From contig JBFMDX010000005.1 in the NCBI GenBank assembly GCA_040753795.1, forward strand, positions 186,001 through 250,000: a DNA stretch of 64,000 nt, in the 5' to 3' direction. How positions within the stretch are numbered: position 1 is the first letter of the stretch; every line of letters starts with the position of its first letter. This DNA comes from Thermodesulfobacteriota bacterium. GTDB taxonomy: Bacteria > Desulfobacterota > Desulfobacteria > Desulfobacterales > Desulfosudaceae. The notes under the pieces are model-generated. The model worked only from the letters and a program-made list of their open reading frames with translations, was not told the DNA's origin and did no database searches. The position numbers and the translations under genes are program-made. Positions 13,418 to 20,969 of this stretch are shown piece by piece.

Positions 13418-14596
13418 ATGCAAGGTTACAGAAACAGACAGATCCAGGCGGAAATAGAAGAAAAACTGCTGAACTTTCCGGCCGTTGCGGTGCTGGGGCC
13501 GCGCCAGTGCGGCAAGACGACCCTTGCCCTTACAATTGTCAAGAAGCTTGGCCGGGCGTTATATCTTGATCTGGAAAAGCCTTCCGACCAGAGAAAACTT
13601 CAAGACCCCGAGTTGTTTTTTCAATTTCAGAACGACAACCTGATCTGCCTGGACGAGATTCAGCGACAACCGGAGCTCTTCCCGGTTTTGAGAAGCATCA
13701 TCGATGAACGGGGAGCAAACGGGCAACTGCTCATTCTGGGAAGCGCCTCCAGGGACCTGATCAAACAGAGTTCAGAAAGCCTTGCTGGCAGAATCGCCTA
13801 CATTGAGCTGACGCCGTTTACCCTTCCGGAGGTGGCCGAGACAGCCGATAAAGGGCCTGTTGCCATCATGAAACTCCTCGTAAGGGGCGGATTTCCCAGA
13901 AGCTTTCTCGCTAAAACCGCAAAAGAAAGTTTCGACTGGAGAGAAAATTTTATTCGAACTTTTCTTGAGCGGGATATCCCACAGCTTGGTTTTTCCATCC
14001 CCGCCCATTCACTGGGACGATTGTGGCAGATGCTGGCCCATGTTCATGGTCAGGTCCTTAACAGCTCCAAGCTTGGTGAATCCCTGGGGGTCAGTCACAC
14101 CACCGTCAGAAAATATATTGATCTGCTTTCTCAAACGTTCATGATCAGGACACTACCGCCCTTTGAAGCCAACCTCAAAAAGCGGCTGATAAAATCACCA
14201 AAGATATTTATCCGCGATTCAGGGATACTGCATGCCCTGCTGGGCATACAGAATATTGACGATCTGCTGGGGCACCCCGTTTATGGTTCGTCTTGGGAGG
14301 GCCTTGCGATAGAAAACATTCTGACCTGCGGCAGAGGCTGGCATCCTGCTTTTTTCCGCACCTCAACGGGCGTTGAAATTGACTTGATCCTGACAAAAGG
14401 GAAGAAAGCCGTGGCCTTTGAATTTAAAGCATCCGCGGCGCCGACGGTCGGCAAGGGATTCTGGATGGCGTTGAGCGATCTGAATATTAATGAGGCCTGG
14501 GTTATCGCGCCGGTAAAAGAGGCCTATCCGATCAAGAAAAATGTCATGGTCGCGCCGCTTGATTACGCGCTTAACCGGCTTCAGGGAAAAAGATAA
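13418..14596 (+). CDS. ATPase with AAA_14 and DUF4143 domains
   Basis: 392 residues. Walker A GPRQCGKTT (about residues 28-36), Walker B LICLDEIQ, and the sensor-like LILGSASRDL are all in place. The C-terminal DUF4143 part includes a winged-helix-like segment (LGESLGVSHTTVRKYIDLL) and a PD-(D/E)xK-like stretch (TGVEIDLILTKGKKAVAFEFKA), which is the usual layout of this very common family. Members are widespread in mobile gene pools and their role is not settled. The base composition is AT-richer than the flanking housekeeping genes, and a second, diverged family member follows. Confidence 0.85.
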   Translation: MQGYRNRQIQAEIEEKLLNFPAVAVLGPRQCGKTTLALTIVKKLGRALYLDLEKPSDQRKLQDPELFFQFQNDNLICLDEIQRQPELFPVLRSIIDERGANGQLLILGSASRDLIKQSSESLAGRIAYIELTPFTLPEVAETADKGPVAIMKLLVRGGFPRSFLAKTAKESFDWRENFIRTFLERDIPQLGFSIPAHSLGRLWQMLAHVHGQVLNSSKLGESLGVSHTTVRKYIDLLSQTFMIRTLPPFEANLKKRLIKSPKIFIRDSGILHALLGIQNIDDLLGHPVYGSSWEGLAIENILTCGRGWHPAFFRTSTGVEIDLILTKGKKAVAFEFKASAAPTVGKGFWMALSDLNINEAWVIAPVKEAYPIKKNVMVAPLDYALNRLQGKR

Positions 14597-14945
14597 CCGA
14601 ATTCTCATGGGGTCGGACCTGCATAACCTCTTTATATATCAGAAAATATTTTCCAAGAGAAAGCGTTTTTATCGCTTAAACCGTTATTTTCAAACTTAAA
14701 ATCGGCATTGTAAAACAAAGAGCCTCTTTCAGCACGGATGTACCGTCAGGTACAATGGATTCCAGCAGATGGTCCGCTACTACGGCTTTTTATAACAACA
14801 AGAGCCGGGGTCAGCGGATAATGGCAAACCAGGTTGATGACATCGCCCAAATTCTCCCCAGGTAAAAAATCCCGTGGCTGATCTCGAATGGCTAATTCGG
14901 CATGAAAATCGGAAAAGTCTTGACTTTTTCGGAGTCACAGGCATA
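14597..14945. other. Intergenic region between the two DUF4143 ATPase genes
   Basis: About 350 AT-rich bases if the second ATPase starts at 14946. Near 14608 a short ggggtcggacctgcataacc resembles degenerate intergenic repeat sequence common in such genomes. No hairpin with a T-run, RNA gene or open frame stood out. Confidence 0.4.
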
Positions 14946-16115
14946 ATGGTCAGCATGAAACGTTACCTGGAAACATACATTAAAAAGGATCTGCCGGAGA
15001 AGATCATCCTCCTGACAGGGCCACGGCAGGCCGGCAAGACCACGCTGTCCAGAATGCTGACCGACAGCTTTGATTATTTTAATTATGACAATGCCGAGCA
15101 CCGGGCGGACCTGCTGGAAAAATCCTGGGACCGGTCAAAGGAACTGATTATTTTTGATGAGCTGCATAAACAGAAAAACTGGAAGTCGTGGCTGAAAGGC
15201 ATCTTTGATACCGAAGGGATACCGCCGTCCCTGCTGGTTACCGGCAGCGCCCGGCTGGACACTTACAGAAAAGCCGGCGATTCTCTGGCGGGCCGGTTTT
15301 TTCAGTTCCGGCTGCATCCCCTGGACCTGAAGGAAATCAACGCCGTTCTGAAACCGGACCATCTGGAGAAGGAGCTGGATAAGTTGCTGGATGCCGGCGG
15401 TTTTCCGGAGCCGTTTTTAAAGGGCAGTCAGCCGTTTTACAAGCGCTGGCAGAAATCGCATCTGGATATAATCATCCGGCAGGATCTGATCGAGTTGGAG
15501 GATGTTCAGCAGATCACGGCCATTGAGACCCTGATTCAGCTGTTGAAGCGGCGCGTGGGCAGCCCGGTTTCCTACCGCTCTCTGGCGGAAGACTTGCGGT
15601 GCTCGGACAAGACCGTCAAGCGCTGGCTGACCATTCTTGAAAATATGTATGTCATTTTCAAGGTGCCGCCGTATCACAACAATATTGCCCGGGCGATATT
15701 AAAATCTCCGAAATTCTATTTTTACGATACCGGCCAGGTGATCGGGGACCCGGGGGTAAAGATGGAAAACCTGGTGGCCTGTGCCCTGATTAAAGAAATT
15801 CATTATCTGGAAGACTGTTTCGGCGAAGAGAGCCGGCTTTATTATTTGAAAAACAAGGAAGGCAAGGAGATCGATTTTCTGGTTACCCGTAACGAGGCTC
15901 CCTTGTTGATGCTGGAGGTCAAATGGCAGGACAACGCCTTGAGCCCCAATTTTGCCGCGTTTGAGAAATATTTTCCCGGAACCAGAAAAATCCAGCTGGT
16001 CAAAGCGCTGAAAAAGGAAAAAACGTATTTAAAAGGGCCGGAAATCCGCGCGGCCCACAAATGGCTGGCCGGCCTGGATTTGTCCGGGAGTAAAAAGGGG
16101 GACAGTCTCACTTAA
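14946..16115 (+). CDS. Second ATPase with AAA_14 and DUF4143 domains
   Basis: 389 residues from the Met chosen here (the next Met, three codons on, is equally possible; the frame is open from 14874). Walker A GPRQAGKTT, Walker B LIIFDELHK, the sensor LLVTGSARLDTY, a winged-helix-like SLAEDLRCSDKTVKRWL, and a nuclease-like C-terminus (EGKEIDFLVTRNEAPLLMLEVKW). It is clearly of the same family as the gene before it but well diverged, so it is not a recent duplicate. The last residues (KKGDSLT) and the stop codon are encoded inside an inverted-repeat element, so the natural C-terminus was probably altered by insertion. Confidence 0.82.
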   Translation: MVSMKRYLETYIKKDLPEKIILLTGPRQAGKTTLSRMLTDSFDYFNYDNAEHRADLLEKSWDRSKELIIFDELHKQKNWKSWLKGIFDTEGIPPSLLVTGSARLDTYRKAGDSLAGRFFQFRLHPLDLKEINAVLKPDHLEKELDKLLDAGGFPEPFLKGSQPFYKRWQKSHLDIIIRQDLIELEDVQQITAIETLIQLLKRRVGSPVSYRSLAEDLRCSDKTVKRWLTILENMYVIFKVPPYHNNIARAILKSPKFYFYDTGQVIGDPGVKMENLVACALIKEIHYLEDCFGEESRLYYLKNKEGKEIDFLVTRNEAPLLMLEVKWQDNALSPNFAAFEKYFPGTRKIQLVKALKKEKTYLKGPEIRAAHKWLAGLDLSGSKKGDSLT

Positions 16116-16176
16116 TTGACGATGGCAGAGGCACCCGGAAATATGTCACCAATTAAGTAAACTGTCCCCCTTTTTA
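16091..16176. repeat. Inverted-repeat element overlapping the end of the ATPase gene
   Basis: The left arm (16091-16117) and right arm (16151-16176) are inverted copies: taaaaagggggacagt, then acttaatt, against aattaagt, then actgtcccccttttta. The spacer is about 33 bases. Sequences with an aaaagggggacagt core are familiar as REP-type elements mobilised by Y1 (RAYT) transposases; no such transposase is in this window. The right arm ends in a T-run, so the hairpin could also act as a terminator for the ATPase gene. Confidence 0.75.
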
Positions 16177-16378
16177 CAATTCCATAATTATTTGAATTTC
16201 AGTAGATTTATGAACATGCATAATTTTTGCGCAGACCGCTTGTAAATAATCAGAGATGTGGCAGAATGTCAAAAAGGGGTTATAAACAAGCAGTCTACAT
16301 AAATATAATGTTATGTTTTTGAGACAAAAGTCATGGTGCATTGATTCTTCGAAATATTGGAGTGCAAGATTAACACCG

Positions 16379-17314
16379 ATGACGAAGAAGACTTCGAGTA
16401 AAAAACACCATTATCTTCCCAGACATTACTTAAAGGGATTTACTGATAAAGAGGGTGGTTTCTTCGTCTATGACAAATCTACTACCAAGATATTTCCCAC
16501 CGCTCCTGATGCCGCTTTTTTTGAAAACGATTTGAATACAGTCGAACTACCGGATGGGGGGTTCTCAGATTTCTTAGAAGGTCTCTACACGGGGATTGAG
16601 AATCAATCTTGGGGGCCGTTGGACAAAATCAGAGGGTCTAGTTTTGACGCACCCATTGAACCTTTGGACAAAATGCAACTTTTTCTTTTCTTGTCGTTTC
16701 TGTACTGGAGGCTGCCGAGCAATATCAAACTCGCAGAAGAACTATCAAGAGAGTTTTTTGATGGAGATAACGATCTTGATTATTTCAAGCTCCTAAGTAA
16801 AACCGGTGAAACTGTGCCAAAAGAGGTAGTGGAAAGAATAAGAACCTCTCCAGCTTTCAAGAAAACTGCCAGGAGCATAGTGCCATTCGCCCCATTTTTT
16901 AAAGACAAGGACTGGTGGCATAGCATTGATGACTGGCGATTCGTCTATTCGGGAGATCAGGGTAAGTGGTTTATCGTAGGAGACAATCCGATCGTTGCTC
17001 ACGGCAACAACGACCACGATCCTGTCAACTGTCTAAAAGAATTCATTTTTCCGATCTCTGGAAACATTCTTTTGGTCGCTGGCCATAAACATACTGATAA
17101 AACACTCCCTCCCGGTTTCGCAGTGCAGTACGGTATCGGAATCATAGAAAGAGCTCAGAGATTTGTTGCCTGTCAAAACAAAGCTTTTCTTGAGGCACTG
17201 ATAAAGCACCATGACTTGCATGTTCAATATGACAAGACCAACATCATTATCCCGGAACTCTTTAAGATGCTGGAAGAAAAAGAAAGGGTTCCTGTCGATT
17301 TCAAAAGGGTATGA
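16379..17314 (+). CDS. DUF4238 domain protein
   Basis: 311 residues from the Met at 16379; an upstream in-frame ATG at 16313 would add 22 residues. Neither start has a strong ribosome site, and a TATAAT-like box sits just before 16313. The N-terminus has the family hallmark KKHHYLPRHYLKGFTD followed by FFVYDK and FFENDLNTVE. A second conserved part (WFIVGDNPIVAHGN, FPISGNILLVAGH) lies in the C-terminal half. DUF4238 proteins are soluble, of unknown function, and common in accessory and defence-rich regions. The gene is AT-rich (a 60-base sample at 16681 has 26 G+C), which suggests horizontal origin. It is followed by a terminator. Confidence 0.75.
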   Translation: MTKKTSSKKHHYLPRHYLKGFTDKEGGFFVYDKSTTKIFPTAPDAAFFENDLNTVELPDGGFSDFLEGLYTGIENQSWGPLDKIRGSSFDAPIEPLDKMQLFLFLSFLYWRLPSNIKLAEELSREFFDGDNDLDYFKLLSKTGETVPKEVVERIRTSPAFKKTARSIVPFAPFFKDKDWWHSIDDWRFVYSGDQGKWFIVGDNPIVAHGNNDHDPVNCLKEFIFPISGNILLVAGHKHTDKTLPPGFAVQYGIGIIERAQRFVACQNKAFLEALIKHHDLHVQYDKTNIIIPELFKMLEEKERVPVDFKRV

Positions 17315-17361
17315 TTGGAATATTTTACAAAAGAAAGAAGAATTGCATCACAAGGTCAATC

Positions 17362-17392
17362 CAGCCGATCGCTATGATCCGGCTGATTTTTT
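17362..17392 (+). terminator. Rho-independent terminator after the DUF4238 gene
   Basis: Stem cagccgatc against gatccggctg, with one bulged base and a 5-base loop, followed by attttttc. The position, about 50 bases after the stop and before the restriction gene, fits. Confidence 0.6.
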
Positions 17393-17442
17393 CGTTGGGC
17401 GTCTGAATGTTGCCGGTAACCGTGGATAAGGATTGAATACGT

Positions 17443-20352
17443 ATGAGTAAGACATTCGACCAGGGCAAAGATGAAGTTGCCAAGTTGTGTCAGTACTTCG
17501 CCGTTAACCGGCAGTCCTTCCTTGCCCCTGGCGTCAAGGAAGCCCACGTCCGCCAATCGCTCATAGACCCTTTTTTCGAAGCCCTGGGCTGGGACATGCG
17601 CAACGCCGCCATGGCCGCGCCCCAGTATCGCGAAGTCATTACCGAAGACAGCCTGGATGTGGAAGGCCAACAGAAGGCGCCCGACTACACTTTCCGCGTC
17701 GGCACCTTGCCGAAGTTCTACGTCGAAGCCAAGAAGTGCGGCGTTAATATCAGCGCCGATCCGGCGCCGGCCTATCAACTTCGCCGCTATGGCTTCAGCG
17801 CCAAACTGGCCCTGTCCATCCTGACCGACTTCGATGAACTGGGCGTGTACGATTGCGCCTCTCGCCCGCGACCCGGCGATAAGGCCAGCCATGCCCGCAT
17901 CCAGTATTTCGGGTTCACCGAGTACCCTGACCGCTGGCAGGAGATTTGGGACGTGTTCTCGCGTGAGGCCGTCTGGTCCGGGACATTCGACCAGTATGCC
18001 GCCTCCAAGCGTAAGCGCGGCACCTCCGAGGTTGACGGCGAGTTTCTGAAGGATATCGAAGGCTGGCGCGATGTGCTGGCGCGGAATCTCGCCCTGCGCA
18101 ACAGCGATTTGTCGGCGGACGATCTCAACGCCGCCGTTCAACGGATCATTGACCGGATCATCTTCCTGCGAATGGCCGAGGATCGCGGGCTGGAGTCTTA
18201 CGGGCAACTGCTCAAACTCTGTGAGCAGCCCGACATCTACGACCGTTTTATGAGCGGATTATGCCGTAAGGCCGATAAGAAATATAATTCCGGTCTGTTT
18301 CATTTTCAGAAAGAACACGGCGTGTCTGATGCGCCGGACACGCTCACGCCGCGCCTGGCAGTGGACGACAAAACCATCAAAACCATTCTTCAAAGCCTCT
18401 ACTTTGAGCATGGTTGCCCTTACCACTTCGGCGTCCTGCCCGTGGAAATTCTGGGTACGGTGTATGAGCGCTTTTTGGGCAAGGTCATCCGCCTGACTGC
18501 CGGGCATCAGGCCAAAGTCGAGGAAAAACCCGAAGTGCGCAAGGCCGGCGGCGTCTACTACACCCCGGCCTATATCGTGAATTACATCGTCCACAACACC
18601 ATCGGCAAGCAGATTGAAGGCAAAAGCCCCGCCGATCTTTCCGGCGGCAAAACCAGACCTCCCTTTCGTGTGCTTGACATGGCCTGCGGCAGCGGCTCCT
18701 TCCTCCTGGGCGCCTATCAGTTCCTGCTCGACCATTGCCTGAACTGGTACCAGGCCAACCCTTCCAAGAAACATGGCAAAGCCGTCTATCAGAACTCCAA
18801 GGGCGAAACCTGTCTTACCATCGCCGAACGCAAACGCATCCTGACCACCCACATCTTCGGCGTCGATATCGACCAACAGGCCGTTGAAACCACCAAGCTC
18901 TCTTTGTTGTTAAAAGCCCTGGAAGGCGAAAACGATACCTCCCTCTCCAAGCAGATGCTTCTTTTCCACGAACGCGCCCTGCCGAATCTATCGGACAACA
19001 TAAAGTGCGGAAACTCCCTGATCGCCTCCGACTTCTCCATGCTTCCCGAAGACCTCGTCCGCGTCCGCGCCTTTGACTGGTCCGCGCAATTCCCTGACGC
19101 CATGAAAGCCGGGGGGGTCGATGTGGTGATTGGGAATCCACCTTGGGGAGCAAGTCTCTCTGATGAAGAGAAGAAGTATCTGTCGCAGAGCTATTCATGC
19201 TTCCAAGGAAATCATGACAGCTACCTATTCTTCATAGAAAAGGCTAATACCCTTCTTAGGAACAATGGGCACACATCTTTTATCACTCCAGACTCGTGGA
19301 TCAAAGTTCCTCAAGCCGAACAACTTCGTCGGATACTTCTCGGTAACGGAAACATCGCTTCGATCACAACATTACCTCAGAAGGTGTTCAAAGGCGTAAG
19401 CGCAAACTGTCTCATTTTTGCATTCACCAAGGGAAGAGAGACGGATAAGTGTCAAATCAATATCCTGAGACCTAAATCCGACCTGTCAAACCTAGCGCAA
19501 TGCAAGTTTGAAGAGAACTACAAAGTAAACACAGCGGAGTGGAAAACGTCTCCTGATGCACAGTTCCAGATATTTCAGAAAAGGGAAGTCTCTCAAATTA
19601 TCAACCGCATTGGCGACCGCTGTGCACAGGCGTTCCGATTTTTGGACGTCATGCAAGGAATTGTGCCATATTCGAAAGAGAACCATTCGAAGGAGACAAT
19701 CGAAAAGCGAGCATTCCATTCCCCTAAGAGATTATCTGATGAGTACGGGATATGGATTCAAGGACGGGCGATCACTAGGTATTGTCTCACGCTCAAAACC
19801 GTCGAGTATCTGCGTTATGGTGACTGGTTGCACCGTCCGCGAAAGGCCAAGTACTTTCAAGGCTCCCGGATCTTAATTCAAGAGATAACTGGTGGGCATC
19901 CGCCAAGAATTGCTGCATGCTATTGCGATGCAGTTCTTTATCATGATCCAGGCATCATTTCATGCTTGGTTGTGGAAAATCTTCATCTGAAGTTTCTGCT
20001 CGGAATTTTGAATTCCCGTTTTCTGAGTTGGTTTCATCGTTACGCCTCGCCTAAGGGAACTAGGCATGCGTTTCCCAAAGTTCTCATCGGGGATATTCGA
20101 GCTTTTCCGATACCAAGGATACAGCTTTCAAATCCCGCCGATAAAGGGCGCCACGACAAACTGGTAGCTTTGGTGGACAAGATGCTAACACTGACGCCGA
20201 AGCTACGCGAGGCCACATCAGAATCCGAAAAAGCCGCATTGCAAAATGCCGTCACGGCGACCGATGTGGAGATCGACCGTCTGGTGTATGAACTATACGG
20301 CCTGACCGAAGAGGAAATCAAAATCGTTGAAAACGACCGGAGGGTTCCATGA
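17443..20352 (+). CDS. Type IIG (Eco57I-like) restriction-modification enzyme
   Basis: 969 residues in a single polypeptide. N-terminal nuclease: PD at residues 80-81 and EAK at 95-97, a PD-(D/E)xK arrangement. A helical connector follows. The gamma-type N6-adenine methylase has motif I DMACGSGS from residue 412, HIFGVDIDQQAVE, and motif IV NPPW at 565-568. The C-terminal third is the target-recognition region with a TaqI-like specificity fold (SRFLSWFHRYASPKGTRHAFPK). Such enzymes cut and methylate with one protein, so no separate partner is needed. The start follows a weak aaggatt ribosome site. Base composition drops sharply within the gene after about 19120 and recovers near 20120, covering the specificity region. 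The 3' end overlaps the next gene by 4 bases. Confidence 0.87.
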   Translation: MSKTFDQGKDEVAKLCQYFAVNRQSFLAPGVKEAHVRQSLIDPFFEALGWDMRNAAMAAPQYREVITEDSLDVEGQQKAPDYTFRVGTLPKFYVEAKKCGVNISADPAPAYQLRRYGFSAKLALSILTDFDELGVYDCASRPRPGDKASHARIQYFGFTEYPDRWQEIWDVFSREAVWSGTFDQYAASKRKRGTSEVDGEFLKDIEGWRDVLARNLALRNSDLSADDLNAAVQRIIDRIIFLRMAEDRGLESYGQLLKLCEQPDIYDRFMSGLCRKADKKYNSGLFHFQKEHGVSDAPDTLTPRLAVDDKTIKTILQSLYFEHGCPYHFGVLPVEILGTVYERFLGKVIRLTAGHQAKVEEKPEVRKAGGVYYTPAYIVNYIVHNTIGKQIEGKSPADLSGGKTRPPFRVLDMACGSGSFLLGAYQFLLDHCLNWYQANPSKKHGKAVYQNSKGETCLTIAERKRILTTHIFGVDIDQQAVETTKLSLLLKALEGENDTSLSKQMLLFHERALPNLSDNIKCGNSLIASDFSMLPEDLVRVRAFDWSAQFPDAMKAGGVDVVIGNPPWGASLSDEEKKYLSQSYSCFQGNHDSYLFFIEKANTLLRNNGHTSFITPDSWIKVPQAEQLRRILLGNGNIASITTLPQKVFKGVSANCLIFAFTKGRETDKCQINILRPKSDLSNLAQCKFEENYKVNTAEWKTSPDAQFQIFQKREVSQIINRIGDRCAQAFRFLDVMQGIVPYSKENHSKETIEKRAFHSPKRLSDEYGIWIQGRAITRYCLTLKTVEYLRYGDWLHRPRKAKYFQGSRILIQEITGGHPPRIAACYCDAVLYHDPGIISCLVVENLHLKFLLGILNSRFLSWFHRYASPKGTRHAFPKVLIGDIRAFPIPRIQLSNPADKGRHDKLVALVDKMLTLTPKLREATSESEKAALQNAVTATDVEIDRLVYELYGLTEEEIKIVENDRRVP

Positions 20353-20969
20353 CATCCAACAAGAGCCATTGGGATAATCTGTTTAACAGGACAGAAGATA
20401 CAAAATTGGGGTGGTACGAAAAAGATACCGCCCAGACTTTCAAGCTGCTGAGCCAAATTCCAGGCCTGGAAAAAGCCACCGTCTTTCTCCCCGGCGCCGG
20501 CACTTCCATTCTCATAGACGACCTTATTCCTAATACAGGCAAGCTGATCCTCAATGACATCAGCGAGGAGGCGTTAAATCGGGTAAGACGACGATTAAAA
20601 GAGGGCAGCGGGAAAATTATATGGCTTTGCCAGGACATTGCGCAACCGATTACCGGTCTCATACCGGAAACGGATGTCTGGATTGACAGGGCTGTCTTAC
20701 ATTTTCTAACCGAAGAAAATGACATTGCAGGATATTTTAAAAACCTTACGTCTATCTTAAAGACAGGGGGCCATGCCATATTTGCCGAGTTTTCATTAAC
20801 AGGTGCGCCCAAATGCGCCGGATTGACGCTTCACAGATATTCCGTTGATGAACTCTCTCAAAGGCTGGGGGCGGCCTTTACGCTTGTGTCTCAATTTGAC
20901 TACACTTACATCAATCCTTCCGGTGATCCCAGGCCATACATTTATGCGCTGTTTAAAAGAGAAGGATAG
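20349..20969 (+). CDS. Class I SAM-dependent methyltransferase (TPMT-like)
   Basis: 206 residues. The N-terminus SHWDNLFNRTEDTKLGWYE and the SAM-binding strand-loop VFLPGAGTS, followed by LILNDISEEAL and DVWIDRAVLHFLTEE, match the thiopurine/tellurite-type small-molecule methyltransferase group (a motif-I variant with LPGAGTS in place of DxGxG). The substrate is unknown; chalcogen, thiol or metalloid compounds are usual for relatives. The start codon overlaps the type IIG stop by 4 bases (ATGA), so it is translationally coupled to the restriction enzyme, which is unexpected for a metabolite methyltransferase. There is no DNA-methylase NPPY-type motif. Confidence 0.75.
   Translation: MTSNKSHWDNLFNRTEDTKLGWYEKDTAQTFKLLSQIPGLEKATVFLPGAGTSILIDDLIPNTGKLILNDISEEALNRVRRRLKEGSGKIIWLCQDIAQPITGLIPETDVWIDRAVLHFLTEENDIAGYFKNLTSILKTGGHAIFAEFSLTGAPKCAGLTLHRYSVDELSQRLGAAFTLVSQFDYTYINPSGDPRPYIYALFKREG

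Follow-up and report, generated by a model that had tools for sequence, protein, structure and literature searches.

The window, a stretch of 64,000 nucleotides from a contig (JBFMDX010000005.1) of a Thermodesulfobacteriota bacterium, contains a gene that appears from its domain families to encode a Type IIG restriction-modification enzyme. The gene is divided here into a conserved core, an AT-rich block and a conserved tail, and its parts are listed in Table 1 together with the sequences that flank it.

Table 1. Features at the putative Type IIG locus (positions in the window)
Feature	Position	Strand	Basis
Upstream edge of the conserved unit	17341..17442	+	DNA homology begins at 17341 (L093), 17384 (L090) and 17392-17394 (L089, L092)
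Putative Type IIG restriction-modification gene, 969 aa	17443..20352	+	ORF; Pfam HSDR_N, N6_Mtase, Eco57I, TaqI_C; PADLOC REase_MTase_IIG
Conserved core, residues 1-564: nuclease and first methyltransferase half	17443..19134	+	Alignments; D412 and C415-G418 invariant
HSDR_N-like nuclease domain, residues 32-140	17536..17862	+	Pfam; D81, E95 and K97 nearly invariant
NPPW motif, residues 565-568, the 5' junction	19135..19146	+	Edge of identity in pairs
Exchanged AT-rich block, residues 569-897: second methyltransferase half and target-recognition region	19147..20133	+	Composition, alignments, trees, model
TaqI_C-like specificity domain, residues 772-890	19756..20112	+	Pfam
Conserved tail, residues 898-969: helical hairpin in the model (898-923, 927-951)	20134..20352	+	DNA alignments, model
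Small SAM-dependent methyltransferase-like ORF, 4-nt overlap with the Type IIG stop	20349..20969	+	ORF, Pfam

Gene and domain organization

Nuclease, methyltransferase and specificity domains are found in one open frame. HSDR_N scores 30.3 bits against a Pfam cut-off of 25.1 and TaqI_C 39.8 bits against 26.5, and N6_Mtase/Eco57I methyltransferase domains lie above their cut-off inside residues 364-673. The best PADLOC model for the window protein is REase_MTase_IIG (E 3e-179), with its best stretch at residues 8-722. Across 42 aligned members, the nearly invariant D81, E95 and K97 are presumably the PD-(D/E)XK pattern, and N565-P567 are invariant, as are the core residues given in Table 1. All the sequence characters of a Type IIG enzyme are present, i.e. 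an N-terminal nuclease, a gamma-class methyltransferase with motif I ahead of NPP[YWF], and a specificity domain in the same chain. The structure of the protein is predicted with a mean pLDDT of 86.5. As judged from these domains, the N-terminal nuclease would cut DNA and the same target would be methylated at adenine, the target being set by the C-terminal half.

Might the protein belong elsewhere? The best PglX model reaches 107.4 bits against a curated cut-off of 500, which sets the protein apart from BREX PglX. The MmeI methyltransferase model PF20473 scores 42.7 bits (cut-off 27) without other MmeI models being listed, and there is a fold match to MmeI with a Z of 24.4. With respect to Rhs and polymorphic toxins, no Rhs-repeat or toxin-tip Pfam family is listed for the window protein. 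For the methyltransferase-like ORF downstream, no counterpart was found among the ORFs of the other loci compared.

Base composition of the window gene

The initial annotation had pointed to a fall in G+C content within this gene, and a recount gives exactly the values it reported, 39 of 60 bases at 18661-18720 and 23 of 60 at 19201-19260. It had placed the AT-rich part at 19120-20120, close to the limits of the block. A fit of GC3 with one change point puts the step, from 0.73 to 0.50, at codon 562, three codons ahead of NPPW; the likelihood gain of 28.0 was reached in none of 500 permutations, where the maximum was 11.2. With two change points the fit falls at codons 562 and 901 (GC3 0.73, 0.47 and 0.62), and in the window gene alone the second point adds just 2.4 log units. 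The last 80 codons, said to be GC-rich again, contain 124 G+C of 240 bases (52%), so that the claim holds in direction and is weak in this gene. At fourfold sites the G+C fraction is 232/276 (0.84) in the core, 63/139 (0.45) in the block and 23/36 (0.64) in the tail, core and block differing with a Fisher p of 8e-16. GC3 is 0.70-0.83 in the 15 other genes of the window that were measured, all of them lying outside 13418-20969; thus the core matches its surroundings and the block does not. Low GC3 is also found in the neighbours at 16313-17314 (0.44) and 20349-20969 (0.50).

A synonymous AT drop throughout the family

Is the composition of the block peculiar to this gene? Searches covered 58 relatives and 395 genomes of the phylum, the latter searched twice, with the core and the C-terminal part apart. 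A genome collection was also scanned with the whole protein, from which the best 80 of 443 relatives were taken. The resulting 168 loci hold 128 distinct family frames. Composition was compared in 113 of these, after eight without a mapped NPP, four with a short core and three with a short block had been dropped.

In all 113 members the block lies below its own core in both GC3 and fourfold GC, with fourfold means of 0.635 for the core and 0.354 for the block. The difference, block minus core, ranges from -0.02 to -0.65 at fourfold sites and from -0.003 to -0.52 in GC3, and is very small in some members. When the frames are aligned at NPP, GC3 falls from 0.53 in the preceding 15 codons to 0.39 in the 15 codons from NPP. 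Recovery at the tail is clear family-wide, the tail exceeding the block in 92 of 97 members. Amino-acid composition was considered as the source of the step and rejected: synonymous GC is lower in the block for each of the 18 amino acids with a synonymous choice. As a control, 109 long ORFs of the same loci were cut at the same proportions and gave a mean fourfold difference of 0.003. Differences below -0.2 occur in 0 of 107 control ORFs and in 72 of the 113 family members, and differences below -0.1 in 10 of 107 and 100 of 113. The drop is not unique to the family, a weaker one being present in NPP[YFW] genes outside it (mean -0.115, negative in 29 of 35). Type I HsdS genes, considered as a second case of AT-rich specificity genes, were lower than their neighbours in 10 of 14 loci (p 0.19; 30 fetched, 19 with a usable frame, 14 counted).

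How do core and block relate to the genome around them? Among 71 members with enough neighbouring genes, fourfold GC of the core follows that of the neighbours with a slope of 0.91, and that of the block with a slope of 0.44 and an intercept of 0.09; the core lies above the neighbours in 56 members and the block below in 65. Host stretches were compared for 19 genomes: 14 of these have a core above the host (p 0.005) and 16 a block below it (p 0.0007), where host GC is taken from one stretch per genome, some of them short, and values are rounded to two decimals. For this comparison two of 20 fetched stretches were dropped, one with no usable genes and one whose member had no row, and the window's own genome was added. 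A core above and a block below host GC is the pattern that GC-biased gene conversion would give. Excerpts of a study of bacterial genomes argue that this process is active in most bacteria (PMC4450053).

Low synonymous GC is a lasting trait of the module. The drop averages -0.18 in members where core and block are concordant (n=4) and -0.29 where they are discordant (n=82; p 0.12). By age of the block, it is -0.267 where the block has a relative of at least 50% identity (n=55) and -0.299 where it has none (n=45), no significant difference (p 0.33).

Could the block have been brought in once and recently, from an AT-rich donor into a GC-rich gene, so that its low GC is the signature of that donor? 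The sharp step at codon 562 is what such an import would leave, and the block cannot be aligned as DNA with those of close relatives. The shallow block slope, if read as half-adaptation, implies a source near fourfold GC 0.17, a pool from which half-adapted blocks might have come. An import of this kind is nevertheless unlikely, in that the drop extends to every member, including four with neighbour fourfold GC below 0.3 (means 0.29 in the core and 0.20 in the block). Exchange inside the family, we infer, cannot alone keep the block mean under that of the core. The initial annotation had read the AT-richness as the trace of one recombination event. Since the drop is present in all members, in AT-rich and GC-rich surroundings alike, AT-richness does not date or prove a particular event; the class of event is real.

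A second possibility is that function at the level of DNA or mRNA requires an AT-rich block, for instance through folding speed, low mRNA structure or silencing, independent of any exchange. The generality of the drop over members and amino acids and its end at the start of the tail would agree with this. Seven short NPPF proteins argue the other way, with an average of only -0.04, though one stands at -0.20; from their length and motif we take them to be HsdM, which has the same fold without a fused recognition domain (L215, a longer NPPF protein at -0.12, was excluded from the seven). We know of no such need for an AT-rich block, and consider this explanation improbable.

Close relatives and the junctions of the block

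Of 13 loci in the close DNA alignment, one duplicates another (L032 and L092) and one stops at a contig edge inside the core (L094). Nine near relatives span the junction: L089, L090, L091, L092, L093, L095, L098, L109 and L115. Over residues 1-560, amino-acid identity to the window protein in every fully covered bin is 81-95% in seven of them and 55-82% in L095 and L115. Core DNA identity is 71-89% in the close set and 83-89% in the seven nearest that span the junction. In all nine the core DNA alignment stops at codons 567-571, i.e. at NPPW, as does that with the paralogue L030, which ends at codon 567; with a more distant relative, L100, it extends past the junction to codon 601. Identity in residues 581-900 is 10-45% per bin, L089 excepted, whose frame is interrupted there. 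DNA homology resumes at codons 848-940 (19985-20260) in eight of the nine and never in L095. In residues 901-969 the identity is 72-81% in L090, L091, L092, L098 and L109, 51% in L115, 48% in L093 and 38% in L095.

The same limits are found more widely. In 72 pairs drawn from 44 members, the 5' edge lies 2-9 codons past the N of NPP in 65 and about 7 to 66 codons ahead of NPP in the other seven. The 3' edge has a median at residue 906, with quartiles of 889-910 (44 pairs). The 5' junction is tight and the 3' junction looser. In the predicted structure a strand (559-564) ends just ahead of the 5' junction and a helix starts at 898, so that the module would be bounded by structural joints, the end of that strand and the start of the C-terminal hairpin.

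Are there DNA signals at these junctions? The codon for N565 is AAT in 101 of 113 members; at six further columns of conserved Asn, 33-55 of 90-112 codons are AAT. Proteins outside the family that carry the motif also prefer AAT (27 of 38; Fisher p 0.016), and Asn preceding Pro tends to AAT in mid-GC and GC-rich genes generally; a conserved recombinase site at the 5' junction is not claimed. A comparable sequence at the 3' junction, which is present in the window, was set aside as rare: of 50 members that have the hairpin anchor, 10 carry Asn-Pro in the 16 residues ahead of it.

Independence of core and block

An all-against-all comparison was made of 114 cores, 104 blocks and 102 tails, in which the pairs counted are not independent. 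There are 69 pairs with a core identity of at least 80%. In 45 of them the blocks align over half their length at less than 40% identity, in 18 there is no block alignment or a short one, and in six the identity is at least 40%. Where the blocks of a pair align, their identity has a median of 24.7-25.4% whichever of the six core bins is taken, from 30-45% up to 85-100%; with unaligned blocks set to 20% the medians are 22.5-24.3%. The reverse is also seen. Among 72 pairs with a block identity of at least 50%, the core is less alike than the block in 23, e.g. L122/L164 (block 56%, core 34%) and L121/L167 (block 58%, core 40%).

Trees were built from 32 members. In the core tree the window gene and seven near relatives, a group picked by core identity from which L089 and L109 were omitted because part of each is missing, form a single clade with a support of 100. 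In the block tree this group of eight needs eight changes, no fewer than with shuffled labels (mean 7.2). The initial annotation had named congruent trees for all segments as the result that would speak against an exchange; instead, a single clade of these eight is rejected by the AU test on the block tree (p 5.7e-47, by a quick method and a simple model). Both trees gave long-branch warnings, the long branches in the block tree being L092 and L091.

Module exchange by recombination is strongly supported by the incongruent trees together with the sharp junction. Core and block are near-completely decoupled in the family, and the piece between NPP[YW] and the hairpin is modular. The proposed exchange of the specificity part has held up when core and block are compared separately, close cores standing beside blocks at background identity. 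Exchange is a family-wide and repeated process, and not the single substitution that had been envisaged. The exchanged unit is also larger than the recognition domain alone. It starts at the catalytic NPPW loop and takes the second half of the methyltransferase fold along. The initial annotation had supposed that the enzyme kept its catalytic parts; since the unit includes this half of the fold, not all of them were kept. Such a larger unit may be sensible, as methyltransferase residues help read positions at or next to the methylated base according to portions of a Type ISP structural study (PMC4872093).

Could the target-recognition region instead have diverged very fast under diversifying selection, with no recombination? 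Selection would be expected to favour change in specificity regions, and a background identity of about 25% persists in the block. Divergence alone is highly improbable, given that identity falls within a few codons from 81-95% in the core to near 25% in the block, that some blocks are more alike than their cores, and that the block tree rejects the core clade. That metagenome assembly fused unrelated halves at a conserved motif is hardly credible: most close relatives do come from metagenome-assembled genomes, and two contigs of one assembly (L094, L098) end inside the core, but the cores of the close set are not identical as DNA, a dozen or so bases are shared at the junction and usual assembly k-mers are longer, the open frame is uninterrupted in eight of nine near relatives (L089 being the exception), and the window gene lies on a 276-kb contig and its paralogue, with a different block, on one of 333 kb.

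Leftover tails, donors and distribution

When the DNA of each tail was compared with its own locus, extra copies were found for 14 of 70 genes, or 12 after removal of two tandem complete genes of L134. In all 12 the extra copies share the strand of the gene and lie downstream of it (+29 to +2561 nt); they are 76-96% identical and represent the 3' part of the tail. Those of L108 and L165 consist solely of pieces of 26-52 nt. Other ORFs separate the gene from the leftover tail in L149 and L151. At the protein level, extra tails are present downstream in 14 of 80 loci, L134 aside, and in L099, L149 and L151 the intervening DNA holds other ORFs or only short frames. The window gene has no leftover tail downstream. 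We read the leftover copies as the ends of former tails, stranded when a new block and tail came with downstream DNA.

Silent arrays of spare block-plus-tail cassettes were considered as a source of modules and rejected as far as searched, as only 3' tail pieces remain. With 104 blocks as queries, a second whole block was found in none of the 14 loci with extra tails, a search that a block unlike all 104 would escape. In three of these loci (L123, L139 and L163) the gene's own block appears in two pieces.

Where do the blocks come from? No donor for the window block was found: the best full-length match to the C-terminal part is 35% in the 395 genomes of the phylum, the best among the collected loci is 32%, and the best on plasmids is 29% among the matches listed. 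Viral contigs yielded none, and phage records one distant match to the whole protein. The family core occurs in 26 plasmid records; the 15 listed align over roughly two thirds of the protein at 33-38% identity. A family gene of Escherichia coli, about 33% identical to the window protein over residues 9-659, is carried by 28 of 5426 genomes as a single allele, and no swap is seen within the species.

Comparison with known systems

Type IIG (IIC) enzymes have a nuclease, a gamma-class adenine methyltransferase and a specificity region in one chain, as does the window protein. Related folds are those of CamA, BrxX/PglX, M.BseCI, MmeI and DrdV. Residues 331-954 of the model match CamA with a Z of 31.7 and an rmsd of 3.4 over 505 residues, so that the predicted nuclease part would lie outside the match. 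In literature titles and abstracts no description was found of family-wide decoupling or an AT drop for Type IIG enzymes; an earlier account is possible in Furuta and Kobayashi 2012 (NAR), which is reportedly concerned with recognition-domain movement.

Excerpts of published accounts describe how Type IIG specificity can change for both activities together, by mutation or domain exchange (PMC4081073; also PMC3874165). The NPP[YW] junction, the family-wide decoupling of core and block and the synonymous AT drop are absent from those excerpts. In Type I and III systems, as parts of two reports describe (PMC3983042, PMC3077401), recognition sequences likewise move by recombination at flanking conserved sequence, but the protein architecture is different and the unit moved is the recognition-domain sequence.

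The closest analogue, in mode of evolution only, is the displacement of Rhs tips. Sections of the Rhs study (PMC2935791) describe a GC-rich conserved core, an AT-rich variable end, decoupling of core and tip, and displaced remnants downstream, all of which are shared. Here, however, the module lies inside the protein, followed by a conserved tail, and its expected role is to define a DNA target and not toxicity; only tail fragments are recognized downstream. A one-sided homology anchor and displaced 3' remnants are also shared with effector-immunity displacement in the type VI secretion system (T6SS) of Vibrio cholerae, as far as the portions of that work compared here go (PMC5361080). There the displaced pieces are immunity genes, whereas here they are short tail pieces; the mechanism suggested in the same portions resembles homology-facilitated illegitimate recombination.

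A proposed mechanism

How might the exchange proceed? Donor DNA would pair via the conserved core on the left, by homologous recombination. Joining on the right would take place in or near the conserved tail, at variable positions and sometimes illegitimately, and old tails would be left downstream. One event would give the nuclease and the methylase the same new target, and selection may favour new targets. The favoured hypothesis for the AT drop is that the block, which would lack a homologous partner in most crosses, escapes GC-raising recombination and drifts to AT, and that core and tail are raised in GC by homologous exchange. Blocks drawn from an AT-rich reservoir of external origin may be another cause of the drop. 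Taken as a whole, it is highly probable that the gene belongs to a family of Type IIG enzymes with a replaceable module, from NPP[YW] to the hairpin, whose specificity is swapped by recombination. More speculative is the broader proposal of ‘polymorphic restriction enzymes’, a family of many phyla whose specificity module is replaced by Rhs-like displacement, rapidly enough to stand near linkage equilibrium with the core, and in which each gene records GC-biased conversion, core and tail being GC-raised and the block drifting to AT; this we regard as possible and put forward tentatively.

Significance

For restriction to work as a defence against phages, the recognized DNA sequence has to change. 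The family suggests how specificity changes: the second half of the enzyme is made exchangeable by two junctions, of which that at the catalytic loop is tight and that at the hairpin looser. The family is a natural library of target-reading modules, and its junction is a natural fusion point that could be tried in the design of enzymes with new specificities. As a change within a single open frame, present in all members compared, the synonymous AT drop also offers a compact test case for the GC-richness of recombining bacterial DNA.

A paralogue and the NPP asparagine codon

The source genome carries a second member of the restriction gene family (L030), a 1019-codon frame whose core is 60% identical to that of the window's predicted Type IIG gene. 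Its AT-rich block is unrelated to the block of the window gene, and the synonymous GC drop is present here as well. At the 5' junction of the block, the Asn of the NPP motif (family column 565) is encoded by AAT in 101 of 113 members; GC-rich cores keep this codon too (36/45). AAT at this position is somewhat commoner than in motif-bearing proteins outside the family, or before Pro generally.

Coordinates of the features discussed
Feature	Locus	Position
Two neighbouring AAA_14/DUF4143-type ATPase genes	Window	13418-16115
DUF4238 protein gene	Window	16313-17314
Asn codon of NPP	Window	19135-19137
Methyltransferase-like gene	Window	20349-20969
Second family member	L030	G000:C4:251311-254313
Tandem pair of complete family genes	L134	2168-8820
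Three tandem tail copies	L149	8893-9516
Further tail piece	L149	11606-11752
Gene's own tail, ORF and tail copy	L151	9051-10252

Neighbouring genes

The two ATPase genes lie shortly upstream of the restriction gene, and a PADLOC scan of the second matched the candidate defence models PDC-S01. The DUF4238 gene adjoins the restriction gene on its upstream side and has a GC3 of 0.44, far below that of genes elsewhere in the window, beyond 13418-20969. Downstream, a small methyltransferase-like gene has a 4-nt overlap with the restriction gene's stop codon; the similarity of its product to NodS/BioC-type models is weak, under the cut-off. A comparison of the ORFs at other family loci found no such gene next to the members compared.

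Tail copies, tandem genes and contig ends

At L149, the tandem tail copies, spaced by ~201 nt, lie at the gene's end and immediately after it, and two other ORFs precede the further tail piece. At L151 a 347-codon ORF, presumably RhuM-like, separates the gene's own tail from a tail copy that is 89% identical. The tandem genes of L134 share only ~30% identity with each other, in core and in block alike. Two contigs of one assembly (L094 and L098) both stop within the core of a family gene, a hint that a single genome or population carries two alleles whose cores are similar.
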